Part shown: piece by piece, positions 40,064 to 44,390 of the stretch
Layout of the letters: the number at the start of each line of letters is the position of its first letter
Position numbering within the stretch: position 1 is the first letter of the stretch
Position numbers and translations under genes: made by a program
From: Saprospiraceae bacterium
Lineage (GTDB): Bacteria > Bacteroidota > Bacteroidia > Chitinophagales > Saprospiraceae
Direction of reading: 5' to 3'
Assembly (NCBI GenBank): GCA_030729925.1
Contig: JANQWK010000060.1
Location: 1 to 64,000 of the forward strand
Length of the DNA stretch: 64,000 nt
The notes under the pieces: generated by a model
What the model saw: the letters and a program-made list of their open reading frames with translations, nothing else
Told to the model about the DNA's origin: nothing
Databases searched by the model: none

Positions 40064-40600
40064 ATGGAAGACAAGCTATCTTTGGGTCCGGGTTCCCGTG
40101 TAAGGCACCCGGCCTTTGGGGACGGCGTGGTTATTGCCCTACACCCTGCTGCGTATGATGTTTCTTTTATGCTGTATGGCATAAAGAGCGTTGGAAGGGA
40201 TTATGACAAATGGGAAATCATAGAAGCTGTCCCTGCGCAGGAAGCAGTGACCTTCTCTGACATGGAAAAATCCCTGATCCGCATCCTGCGGTATTACAGT
40301 GATTTTAGTGAGGTTACCCCACTGGGCGACAAATGGATCGGTGGAGTCCTCGTACTCCGCCCGGGGTCGGATGAATACCAGGCCAAAGAAATCCCCATGG
40401 AGACCTTCTTTCACAAGATAGTGATGGTTCGAGATCGCCTGCGGGTAATGGAACAACGCATCAATAGCAGCAACCTGGAAGATGAAGAAAAAGTCAACTT
40501 GCAGCAATATATTACACGCATTTATGGCAGCCTAACCTCCTTCAACGTCCTTTTTAAACACAAAGAAGATCAATTTGTTGGAGAAAAGAAAACAACATGA
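40064..40600 (+). CDS. Hypothetical protein with N-terminal Tudor/SH3-like segment
   Basis: A 178-residue protein. Residues 10-45 (GSRVRHPAFGDGVVIAL, ending in DKWEI) resemble the Tudor-like tail of UvrD/PcrA helicases, which contacts RNA polymerase. No other motif is recognised. It overlaps the next gene by four bases (ATGA) and is therefore co-translated with the TlpA-like lipoprotein. The link to transcription or repair is only inferred. Confidence 0.62.
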   Translation: MEDKLSLGPGSRVRHPAFGDGVVIALHPAAYDVSFMLYGIKSVGRDYDKWEIIEAVPAQEAVTFSDMEKSLIRILRYYSDFSEVTPLGDKWIGGVLVLRPGSDEYQAKEIPMETFFHKIVMVRDRLRVMEQRINSSNLEDEEKVNLQQYITRIYGSLTSFNVLFKHKEDQFVGEKKTT

Positions 40601-41946
40601 AATCACCTGGACTACCTGTTTTTTTGCTGATCGCACTGGCTATGGCAGCCACCAGCTGCTTTAAAATTGACAACACCTTCACCGGGCTGGCTCCGGGTTC
40701 TTGGCGGGCTACGCTGGAATTGGAAGAACAGTTTATCACCCATAACCCCAAAGGGAAACCCCTGCCTGAAAAACTCAACTGGGAGTTTGAGGAAGTCACC
40801 AAGGGGGAGTTGCCCTTCGTATTTGAGGTCATCTATACCGACGATAGTACCTTCCACCTCGAAATCATCAACGGACCTGAGCGGATCAAAGTTGAGGACA
40901 TCCATTTGGGAAGGGACTTGCAGCTAGCCCGAGATACCATTTATATCAATTTTCCAATATTTGACAGCCATATCCAGGCATTCGTAGAGGAGAACCTGAT
41001 CGAGGGAGAATGGGTCGTTCGCAACCGGACTATGGAAAACGGCGCTCCGTATGTAGTCCCTTTTTTAGCCCGGCACGGGCAAAACCACCGATTTACCACC
41101 CTCAAAAAACCACCGGTGGCGGATATTAGCGGAAAATGGGAAGTTGACTTTGAAGTAGAAACCGACCATCCTTTCAAGGGAATAGCAGAGTTTCAGCAGG
41201 ACGGCAATGAACTGACAGGGACTTTCCTTACAGAAACCGGCGATTACCGATACCTGGAGGGCACTGTACAAGCCAATAAAATCTATCTTTCCTGTTTCGA
41301 CGGCAGTCATGCCTATCTGTTTGAAGGCAAAATACAGGAAGACGGCAGTCTCATAGGATCTTACGCAGCGGGTATTCATTACCAGACCCTTTGGACTGGC
41401 AAAAAAAATGAAAACTTCGAATTGCGTCACCCTGATAGCCTGACTTTTCTCAAGCCGGGTTACGACAAATTCGCTTTTTCTTTTGAAGATGCAAACGGTC
41501 AGGTAGTCTCTTTGGAAGACGAGCGCTTCCGCGGAAAAGTGACTTTGGTGCAGCTGATGGGAACCTGGTGTCCTAATTGTCGCGATGAAACTACTTTTTT
41601 GGTGGATTATATCCAAAAAAACCCCGAACTTGAATTCGAAGTAGTCGCATTGGCTTTTGAGCGACAGCGGGAAAAGGAAAAAGCCATCCGAGCTATTAAT
41701 ATTTACCGGGAAAAATTCCAAATGGACTACCCCATCCTGCTGGCCGGAAATGAAGACAAAAACGATGCTTCGGAAGTTTTACCCATGCTCAACACAGTGG
41801 TAGCCTTCCCCACCTTGATCATTATGGACAAAAAAGGAGCCATACGACGCATTCATACCGGTTTTTCGGGTCCTGCAACCAGTACTTATGAAAGCTTTAC
41901 CCGAGAATTTGACCAGATGCTCCGTGACCTCATTGCAGAACCCTGA
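40597..41946 (+). CDS. TlpA-family thioredoxin-like lipoprotein
   Basis: A 449-residue exported protein. A lipoprotein signal ends at Cys21-Phe (TSCF). The middle region is beta-rich with repeated EFQQDGNELTGTF-like segments. The C-terminal redoxin domain has the active-site pair in GTWCPNC (about 325-331). It probably reduces disulphides in the periplasm, for cytochrome maturation or repair. Its start overlaps the stop of the preceding gene. Confidence 0.88.
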   Translation: MKSPGLPVFLLIALAMAATSCFKIDNTFTGLAPGSWRATLELEEQFITHNPKGKPLPEKLNWEFEEVTKGELPFVFEVIYTDDSTFHLEIINGPERIKVEDIHLGRDLQLARDTIYINFPIFDSHIQAFVEENLIEGEWVVRNRTMENGAPYVVPFLARHGQNHRFTTLKKPPVADISGKWEVDFEVETDHPFKGIAEFQQDGNELTGTFLTETGDYRYLEGTVQANKIYLSCFDGSHAYLFEGKIQEDGSLIGSYAAGIHYQTLWTGKKNENFELRHPDSLTFLKPGYDKFAFSFEDANGQVVSLEDERFRGKVTLVQLMGTWCPNCRDETTFLVDYIQKNPELEFEVVALAFERQREKEKAIRAINIYREKFQMDYPILLAGNEDKNDASEVLPMLNTVVAFPTLIIMDKKGAIRRIHTGFSGPATSTYESFTREFDQMLRDLIAEP

Positions 41947-41999: not shown

Positions 42000-44390
42000 A
42001 TGAATCCGAATGAAGTAATTTTAGCCTGCCATGAGGCAAACAGCGATATAGCTGATTCTCTGTCCCGTACACTGGCAGGCTCCGGCTACACCCTCAAACA
42101 AATGCGGGCAGCTGGCAATGAGTTGGAGCATACACTGGCTGAACAGCTTGGTGCTACGAACTTACCCACCCTAATGTTGATTAGCGACAACTTCCTGAAA
42201 TCGGCCAATTGCCTCGAAGGCATGTTGCCTTTAGCCAATGATGCCTCCCGAAAAATAACCTATATTTTTACCGAAGGCAAAGCTTCCGATCCGGAGACCG
42301 GGGAAACTTATGCAGTGCCCACCGTAATTGACCGGATTGGTGACATGATCCGATACATTACCTTCTGGCACGACCAAACCCTGGAAATTCGGAACACCAA
42401 AAGCAGCGTTTCGGGAAGTGACATGGAAGATTTTCAGGAATATTTCAGAAGAATACGAGAAATTGCCAATGATGCAGGGGAGTTTTTGCGCCTCCTGCGC
42501 AGCAGTGCCCCCCTCACTTTGGATGAATTTACCGCCAATGACTTCCAGGCTTTTTTTGTGTTCCTGGACGACCAAGAGGCATGGCAAAAGTTCCAGGAAA
42601 GCCCTCCTGTCGAAATGCCGGTGGAAGCAGAAGCAGATCTCACCCTTGCAGAATCTGCCCCCCCGGAAACCGGTCTTGCTATGGATACGCCGCATATCCA
42701 TCCAGAAGCAGCCGAAAACGACCTTACCCTCATCGCCGAACCAGTTGATTTGGAACCAAGCGATATGGAGCAAAACGATGCGATGGGGCAGGACTCTCAG
42801 CAACTGATTAAACAAGGTATTAAAGCCTTTGATGAGGGCAGGTTTGAGGAAGGAATTTCCATTATCGGACAGGTTGTAGAACTCAATCCGGGAGACAATG
42901 ACCTGCGTTATCATTACGCCATGATGCTGGCTCATAATGACCAGCACTTGGATGAAGCCGTTGATCAATTGAAGCTCGTACTGGAGGTCAATCCTTCCAA
43001 AGAAGAGGCGCTCATGCTTTCCGGTAGATTGGCCGAACAGCAACAACGGTTTTCTGATGCCAAAGGCTTTTTCCAGCGGGTGCTGGAACTGAACCCTCAA
43101 CATCCCGAAGTACATTACAAGTTGGCTAATATCATGCTGAACCACTTTGAAGATCAGGCAGATGAAGCCGCCAGGCACCTGCTCGAGGGAGCAGAGCAGC
43201 ATACTGATAACGCCGAAAAACTTTTCCGGTATGCGCGTATGATAGCTAATCTTGAAGGGTACACAGAAAATGCAGAAGCTTTGTTCCGACAAGTTTTGGA
43301 TCTTCAACCCGATCATGCCCCCAGCTATCTCGAACTGGCACATTTGCTAAAACATCAGCATGCCCACGAAGCAGCTTGGGAGGCTTATCAACAAGCTGTC
43401 CAATTCAAACCGGAACTGGCAACGTCTGAATGGGATATCTTTTTTGCGCTACCAGAACCAGAACCAATCCAGGAGCCGCCCGTGGAAAGTCCTACCATTA
43501 TTCCTACACCAAAAGTTGCACCCATGTCCGAACAGGAAGCCATCAAGGCCTTGATAGATAATATTCACCAATTGCAGTCCCTGCTTGAAGAGAAGCAAAA
43601 ACAAGCGCAAAGCAAGGAAGTCAACCATGCAAAGATTGTATTGATCACAGGTGCCAGTTCGGGAATTGGCAAAGCTACCGCCAACGCTTTTGCCGCTGAA
43701 GGCTACCGACTTATCCTGAATGCCAGAAGGGGCGATAAACTAGCAGCTTTGAAAGCGGAGCTTGAAGCCGCTCACCAGGCTGATATCATCCTGATGCCTT
43801 TTGATATCACACAGTATGCATCGGTTGCCCAGGCCTGGGAAGCCTTGCCGGAGGAGTGGAAATCCGTAGATGTACTGGTCAATAACGCAGGTAAAGCAAA
43901 GGGTCTGGCTCCCATCCATGAGGGAGAGCTTCGGCATTGGGAAGAAATGATTGATACCAACCTAAAAGGGTTGCTGTACATTACCCGATTGGTTACCCCA
44001 CAAATGGTCGCGCGCAAAACCGGACACATCGTCAATGTGAGTTCGACTGCAGGCAAAGACGCTTACCCCAACGGCAATGTTTACTGTGCTACAAAGTTTG
44101 CTGTTGAGGCGCTCACCAAAACCATGCGGCTCGACTTACACAAATACGGCATCAGGGTTAGTCAGGTGGCTCCCGGACATGTAGAAGAAACAGAATTTGC
44201 CTTAGTCAGGTTCGACGGCAACGCCGAACGGGCAAAAATATACGAAGATTTTAAGCCACTTAGTGCTCAGGATGTAGCCGATGCCATCTTATACATGGTC
44301 AATCGGCCTCCACATGTAAACGTACAGGACATCCTGCTGATGAGTACCCAGCAGGCCAGTGCGACAGTCGTAGATCGAAGTGGCCGCTAA
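42000..44390 (+). CDS. TIR-like / TPR / short-chain dehydrogenase fusion protein
   Basis: A 796-residue protein with no signal peptide. (1) Residues 1-145 look TIR-like: VILACHEANSDIADSLSRTL (box 1, near 7-26) and a SANCLEGML stretch with Glu73 near the usual catalytic Glu. (2) An acidic, low-complexity linker covers about 180-260. (3) About four or five TPRs occupy 265-470 (for example EGISIIGQVVELNPGDNDLRYHYA). (4) A Pro-rich linker. (5) Residues ~545-790 form a classical SDR with TGASSGIG (550-557), Ser681/682, Tyr695 and Lys699, most like YdfG/serine dehydrogenase types. Function unknown. It converges with the thioesterase gene (3-bp gap). Confidence 0.82.
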   Translation: MNPNEVILACHEANSDIADSLSRTLAGSGYTLKQMRAAGNELEHTLAEQLGATNLPTLMLISDNFLKSANCLEGMLPLANDASRKITYIFTEGKASDPETGETYAVPTVIDRIGDMIRYITFWHDQTLEIRNTKSSVSGSDMEDFQEYFRRIREIANDAGEFLRLLRSSAPLTLDEFTANDFQAFFVFLDDQEAWQKFQESPPVEMPVEAEADLTLAESAPPETGLAMDTPHIHPEAAENDLTLIAEPVDLEPSDMEQNDAMGQDSQQLIKQGIKAFDEGRFEEGISIIGQVVELNPGDNDLRYHYAMMLAHNDQHLDEAVDQLKLVLEVNPSKEEALMLSGRLAEQQQRFSDAKGFFQRVLELNPQHPEVHYKLANIMLNHFEDQADEAARHLLEGAEQHTDNAEKLFRYARMIANLEGYTENAEALFRQVLDLQPDHAPSYLELAHLLKHQHAHEAAWEAYQQAVQFKPELATSEWDIFFALPEPEPIQEPPVESPTIIPTPKVAPMSEQEAIKALIDNIHQLQSLLEEKQKQAQSKEVNHAKIVLITGASSGIGKATANAFAAEGYRLILNARRGDKLAALKAELEAAHQADIILMPFDITQYASVAQAWEALPEEWKSVDVLVNNAGKAKGLAPIHEGELRHWEEMIDTNLKGLLYITRLVTPQMVARKTGHIVNVSSTAGKDAYPNGNVYCATKFAVEALTKTMRLDLHKYGIRVSQVAPGHVEETEFALVRFDGNAERAKIYEDFKPLSAQDVADAILYMVNRPPHVNVQDILLMSTQQASATVVDRSGR

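Follow-up and report, generated by a model that had tools for sequence, protein, structure and literature searches.

A TIR domain without its catalytic glutamate, a TPR superhelix and a short-chain dehydrogenase/reductase (SDR) are joined in one protein encoded within the 64,000-nucleotide stretch of Saprospiraceae DNA analyzed here (contig JANQWK010000060.1; hereafter, the window). Each of these parts is known; what appears new is their conserved combination with a TIR domain that lacks the glutamate. In bacteria, TIR domains have chiefly been described as immune enzymes that consume NAD. The explanation that we hold to be reasonably probable is that an immune-type TIR-TPR module, once joined to a housekeeping dehydrogenase, turned into an arm that serves for scaffolding or docking and has no catalytic role.

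The gene lies on the forward strand (42000..44390) and encodes 796 amino acids from an ATG start in a single frame. From N- to C-terminus the protein comprises a predicted TIR fold (residues 1 to about 200; 42000..42599), assigned by model, structure alignment and profile match; an acidic disordered linker (residues 207-263; 42618..42788) with 15 Asp or Glu residues, no Lys or Arg, and pLDDT below 50; a TPR superhelix of about six repeats (residues 266-481; 42795..43442); a long modeled helix ahead of the SDR (residues 511-542; 43530..43625); and an SDR of the YdfG type (residues 545-796; 43632..44387), assigned by Pfam, PDB and NCBIfam matches. In Pfam, residues 545-733 of the window protein matched adh_short (E 1.9e-59), and the stretch from about residue 278 to 460 matched several TPR models, TPR_19 among them (E 5.1e-16). 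A whole-chain AlphaFold model, built on an alignment of 57 full-length sequences (the window protein and 56 of the 66 fused loci described below), reached a mean pLDDT of 88.0 and a pTM of 0.44, so that the domains are confidently predicted and their relative placement is loose; its low-confidence stretches were residues 207-263 and 491-506, and six helix pairs, plus a short cap, were modeled at residues 266-469. An earlier note, made from the letters of this DNA, had described a three-part protein with a TIR-like region, an acidic linker, four to five TPRs and a complete SDR. Pfam, the model and structure alignment bear out the three parts, and the linker is as acidic as described; the repeats are present but number about six by the model.

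By fold, the N-terminus is a TIR domain, as judged from profiles and modeling. Residues 1-146 of the window protein matched Pfam TIR_2 with 15.4 bits (E 0.027), below the curated cut-off of 28, and 37 of 39 homologous N-termini matched the same model at E ≤ 0.1 (best 3.5e-7). These 39 were the window protein and 38 of 45 other N-terminal references, L006, L010, L011, L012 (a duplicate of the same gene), L019, L044 and L051 having been dropped; the short matches L018, L023 and L025 were skipped when the references were collected. A profile of the 39 N-termini matched the TIR domain of MyD88 (E 4.8e-6, profile positions 6-91), whereas a single-sequence search of the window N-terminus against the PDB returned no TIR (best E 0.81); the MyD88 match thus came from the homolog profile only. 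Modeled alone from 76 sequences (the window protein and 75 of the 77 named loci, without L082 and L087), the domain reached a mean AlphaFold pLDDT of 93.4. Foldseek alone was weak, with two matches at E ≤ 0.001, one to a plant TIR and one to a 400-residue ‘resistance protein’ chain. VIA-align, which was run on Foldseek’s matches, placed PdTIR first (3h16; Z 10.6, rmsd 2.5 over 125 residues), with TcpB (Z 10.4), BtTir (10.3), RPS4 (10.1) and AbTir (9.2) as further matches. Ranks 1-25 were TIR proteins, and rank 29 was an IL-17 receptor/ACT1 entry. The first response regulators appeared at rank 37 with Z 7.3. Scores of about 7 for response regulators indicate that the general fold is common, and the verdict rests on the TIR entries ranking above them.

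Profile and structure prediction together thus uphold the TIR fold that the earlier note had proposed for residues 1-145. The extent has to be revised, because a long helical hairpin (about residues 113-168; 42336..42503) carries the domain to about residue 200. In two models, the hairpin helices run from residue 113 to 132 or 136 and then from 139 to 168, ahead of the last helices, and two hairpin residues, Tyr119 and Trp123, are each invariant across the 76 family sequences.

The hairpin also ties the domain to six relatives outside the fusion family (L207-L210, L216 and L217), which come from other Bacteroidota families and share the same domain type over its full length, hairpin Trp included. 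The architectures of the four scanned with Pfam are TIR-TPR (twice), Schlafen AlbA_2-TIR and TIR-NB-ARC; none of the six showed an SDR in the frames that were read. Together they resemble a separate subgroup of TIR domains, which may be of defense type. Only sequences whose match spans the hairpin entered this comparison, which excluded G403, G464, G544 and G573 because their matches stop short of it. When the class around G663 was searched, G663 was the only one of 244 genomes with a match, so that no outside relative was added.

These relatives bear directly on whether the TIR domain of the fusion can cleave NAD. In plant TIRs, the catalytic glutamate of helix C neighbors a conserved cysteine (PMC9153377). 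In the fusion family the alignment places the glutamate position three residues after Cys71, at residue 74 (codon 42219..42221), which is Gly in the window protein and Glu in 3 of the 76 sequences (L117, L128 and L130). All six outside relatives have Glu at this position within a Cys-x-x-Glu motif. Glu73 of the window protein, which the earlier note had correctly described as one position off the usual spacing, recurs in only 9 of the 76. The loss extends beyond the glutamate. When the six were merged with the 76 family sequences, at least five of the six agreed at 27 positions, of which 11 (9, 12, 26, 34, 35, 39, 41, 46, 47, 74 and 185) keep the agreed residue in fewer than 10% of the family, for instance Ser9, Trp12 and Tyr41 in none, Arg34 in one, Asp35 in two and Glu74 in the three named above. 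At 8 others (10, 62, 66, 68, 71, 72, 123 and 155) the residue is kept in at least 60 of the 76, for instance Tyr10 (68), Leu66 (75), Cys71 (71), Trp123 (76) and Ile155 (63). Positions 9, 12, 34, 35 and 41 presumably belong to the first strand and the BB-loop region, the parts of catalytic TIRs that accommodate NAD; positions 26 and 185 are probably outside the pocket, so that part of the residue loss may be general divergence between the two groups. Moreover, the BB-loop region of the family is shorter than that of the Glu-bearing relatives, and residues shared there have been lost. Judged from these residues, the TIR domain of the fusion probably does not cleave NAD, although activity may persist in the few members that carry Glu74.

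Two readings in which the TIR domain still handles nucleotides were weighed against these data. In one, the TIR domain would remain an NAD(P)+ hydrolase or cyclase, acting through Glu73 or another acid, with the SDR sensing or using the product in a defense or stress sensor. The presence of the fold, the retention of Cys71 and the three sequences with Glu74 are in keeping with this; the scarcity of glutamate at both 73 and 74 and the loss of the other residues common to the Glu-bearing relatives tell against it. With the first-strand and BB-loop residues of those relatives nearly absent, the nucleotide-consuming sensor that the earlier note had envisaged is likewise not supported. Further, the TIR region (residues 1-207) had no PADLOC match at E ≤ 0.1, and each of the 52 genomes that bear the domain has a single match, within a conserved gene row. 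The hydrolase or cyclase reading is considered quite improbable. In the other reading, a TIR that no longer cleaves would bind a dinucleotide or an ADP-ribose-like ligand and, in the manner of an allosteric NAD(P) sensor, relay this to the SDR. Such a sensor would fit the retained fold, a partner enzyme that uses NAD(P) and the strong conservation in the hairpin with Tyr119 and Trp123, but the shortened BB-loop region and its lost residues speak against it, and Trp123, being present in all six outside relatives, is no site peculiar to the fusion. An allosteric role is considered unlikely. The preferred explanation remains a non-catalytic arm, and we infer from the residues lost at and near its presumed active site that it would have no NADase activity.

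Some individual sequences differ from the family in this region. L117 reads Cys-Met-Tyr-Glu at the catalytic position, as the outside relatives do. The window’s own genome additionally encodes two other TIR proteins that score above the Pfam cut-off (L001 on contig C61 and L002 on contig C11); by eye, both show the Glu motif and one has pentapeptide-like repeats in front.

A defense system was also considered as an identity for the whole protein and was rejected: PADLOC gave only a weak PrimPol match (E 5.2e-4), located inside the TPRs. The nearest genes encode an oxidoreductase, a 178-residue protein, a thioesterase, a putative symporter and a putative AccD. Judged by these assignments, no defense gene lies next to the fusion, as the earlier note had stated.

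The C-terminal part appears to be a functional dehydrogenase of a familiar kind. Its two closest solved structures were YMR226C of yeast (3rku; E 4.3e-57) and 3asu (E 2.3e-56), which we take to be E. coli YdfG, and the best of the 230 NCBIfam models matched was that of the NADP-dependent 3-hydroxy acid dehydrogenase YdfG (NF007829), with 223.9 bits. This score falls well short of the model’s cut-off of 411, and the fusion protein differs from YdfG further in carrying about 540 extra N-terminal residues; the likeness lies in the best-matching model and structures, the catalytic tetrad and an Arg-Arg pair after the second strand. The tetrad Asn654-Ser682-Tyr695-Lys699 is intact in 54 of 57 fused sequences, the window protein included; the exceptions are L077, L123 and L113, whose frame breaks off close to the end of its contig. 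In the 20 homologs from family genomes without the TIR domain, all four residues are likewise intact throughout. The earlier note was right to call the SDR complete, with its glycine motif TGASSGIG, Tyr695 and Lys699, to which Asn654 and Ser682 are now added. The arginines, Arg576 (56 of 57 sequences) and Arg577 (55 of 57), occupy an SDR position at which an Arg pair points to NADP, and this suggests NADP as the cofactor. The fusion is probably a YdfG-like, NADP-using dehydrogenase, which may, like YdfG, oxidize 3-hydroxy acids or reduce malonic semialdehyde. L077 (6001-8439) has an SDR that has diverged to 35% identity and whose tetrad is broken; in this member TIR and SDR may both be inactive.

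A scan of genome contigs returned 77 named loci. TIR and SDR share one frame in 66 of them (65 whole and 1 that reaches the edge of its contig), 8 are truncated by the contig end, and in the remaining 3 (L117, L137 and L139) the TIR frame adjoins or overlaps a separate SDR frame, which may represent sequencing error, a frameshift or a real split. Because 66 loci are fused alike, the assembly error that had been raised as an alternative is ruled out. By title, 65 loci belong to Saprospiraceae, Saprospirales, Phaeodactylibacter, Lewinella or Flavilitoribacter, the last three being placed in the order Saprospirales by NCBI; the other 12 carry only Chitinophagales, a Bacteroidota-level name or ‘bacterium’. 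Among 298 genomes of the order, 52 contained the N-terminal domain, with one match each and all within the window’s own family grouping. An SDR could be placed in 55 of the 61 family genomes, the other 6 (G009, G011, G022, G039, G050 and G055) having no clear SDR ortholog. Of these 55, 33 are fused, 2 are split (G049, and G060, which has a stop codon) and 20 lack the TIR domain; G023 was counted as fused by hand, its gene being cut by contig ends, and G006 was counted as fused although no TPR was detected in it. It should be noted that some named loci and family genomes represent the same gene (L113 and G001, for example, on a 6277-base contig), so that these counts are not independent. In one genus, TIR-TPR and SDR are encoded by separate neighboring frames, in that order (566 aa in G049 and 550 aa in G290), as would be expected for parts that work together.

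The fusion gene belongs to a recurrent gene row. The first gene upstream in the window (40597..41946, forward strand) encodes a ResA/TlpA-like thiol-disulfide oxidoreductase that contains a WCPNC motif and whose N-terminus, read by eye, resembles that of a lipoprotein; it overlaps by 4 bases the gene of the 178-residue protein (40064..40600, forward strand), which had no Pfam match. The oxidoreductase gene precedes the fusion gene in 69 of the 77 loci (68 by clustering), and 59 of the 70 gaps measured between the two genes are at most 150 bases, the longest being 506. Of the eight loci without it, L115, L116 and L126 start so close to a contig end that the gene would not be visible, and L098, L104, L111, L127 and L138 have room for it upstream yet lack it. 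WCPNC was found in 40 of 45 oxidoreductase sequences read, with close variants in 2 more. A rough lipoprotein-signal pattern matched 13 of 25 and 9 of 17 sequences, and export of the oxidoreductase is accordingly suggested as putative. A member of the 178-residue protein family occurs in 38 of the 77 loci; residues 9-47 of this protein bear a weak likeness to a short chain of a UvrD helicase (7egt, E 0.054). Other recurrent neighbors are a putative dicarboxylate-type symporter (31 of 77) and putative AccD and HemE (21 of 77 each). The thiol oxidoreductase as neighbor hints at redox or aldehyde handling.

The same row exists without the arm. In 17 of the 20 TIR-less genomes, the oxidoreductase lies directly upstream of a plain SDR, so that it is the TIR-TPR arm that varies within a row that these genomes otherwise share. 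Whether the arm was gained or lost was examined with two trees. In an operon tree of 44 rows, combining the SDR, the oxidoreductase and the 178-residue protein, the presence of the arm requires 2 changes, as against a mean of 13.8 with shuffled labels; this tree was built by a quick method without bootstrap and leaves 21 of its 41 inner branches open. It counts the split G049 and G060 among its TIR rows; G046, because of its divergent SDR, the outgroups and all rows lacking a nearby oxidoreductase were excluded. One of the two changes is a loss in G045, whose odd letter make-up had drawn a flag. In an SDR-only tree, the fused label requires 8 changes, and two fused sequences (G006 and G037) lie nearest the outgroups; with 9 of its 58 inner branches starred and 28 open, this poorly resolved tree does not settle the direction of change. 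We tentatively infer that the arm was gained rather than anciently lost. The plain SDR of G045 (L194) falls within the TIR-fused rows of the operon tree and may therefore have lost its arm secondarily.

A further reading takes the arm for a passive remnant: two neighboring genes would have fused by chance, with the SDR working alone and the arm no more than tolerated. The 17 relatives with a plain SDR in the same row, and the one row that seems to have lost its arm, agree with such a history, but the hairpin and core residues are conserved although the domains share only about 21-51% identity with that of the window, and conservation at such distances indicates that the arm is under selection. 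A passive remnant is considered very improbable.

The scaffold explanation would then run as follows. The TIR domain would derive from the hairpin-TIR group of Bacteroidota, which elsewhere sits on TPR, NB-ARC or Schlafen-type proteins with its NADase glutamate kept. In Saprospirales, the TIR-TPR arm would have been placed before the SDR in an oxidoreductase-SDR gene row, and its NAD-cleaving site would have decayed while the TIR fold and hairpin were retained. Because the catalytic glutamate is gone but the fold, the hairpin and the TPRs are kept, the arm is taken to act by contacts: association of TIR with TIR, or of TIR with a partner, together with docking by the TPRs, may cluster or position the dehydrogenase. 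SDRs of this kind are tetramers, and one enzyme would thus display four arms. The earlier note had offered two options, a signaling or defense protein and a metabolic enzyme with a TIR scaffold; the latter is the better of the two, its scaffold part being suggested by analogy.

That analogy is with the animal scaffold TIRs MyD88 and MAL, which likewise lack the catalytic glutamate. The fusion TIR resembles them in its fold and its profile match to MyD88; it differs in being bacterial, in carrying the helical hairpin and in being joined to TPRs and an enzyme. Scaffold TIR domains assemble into open-ended two-stranded complexes (PMC8635717). Likeness to the catalytic TIRs (plant TIRs, AbTir and BtTir) is confined to the fold (Z 9.2-10.3), and the catalytic glutamate is absent in 73 of the 76 fusion-family sequences. 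The outside hairpin-TIR relatives, two of which are TIR-TPR proteins, keep Cys-x-x-Glu and the first-strand and BB-loop residues, unlike the fusion family. It is a tentative proposal that an immune NADase-type TIR-TPR module, its catalytic site decayed, has here become the assembly or signaling arm of a metabolic dehydrogenase. It would then be a bacterial counterpart of the MyD88-type scaffold TIRs and would govern an enzyme of redox or central metabolism, perhaps by bringing copies of the dehydrogenase together through its TIR domains. Within the open-access literature, no paper was found that names Saprospiraceae together with a TIR domain, and a TIR-TPR-SDR fusion was not found described in titles and the beginnings of abstracts; it may still have been published.

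If the scaffold explanation is true, a lineage-wide, glutamate-less TIR domain tied to a metabolic enzyme would represent an immune part reused as a scaffold. Related species that share the gene row, some having the arm and others lacking it, offer a ready comparison for what a non-catalytic TIR domain contributes to its enzyme.
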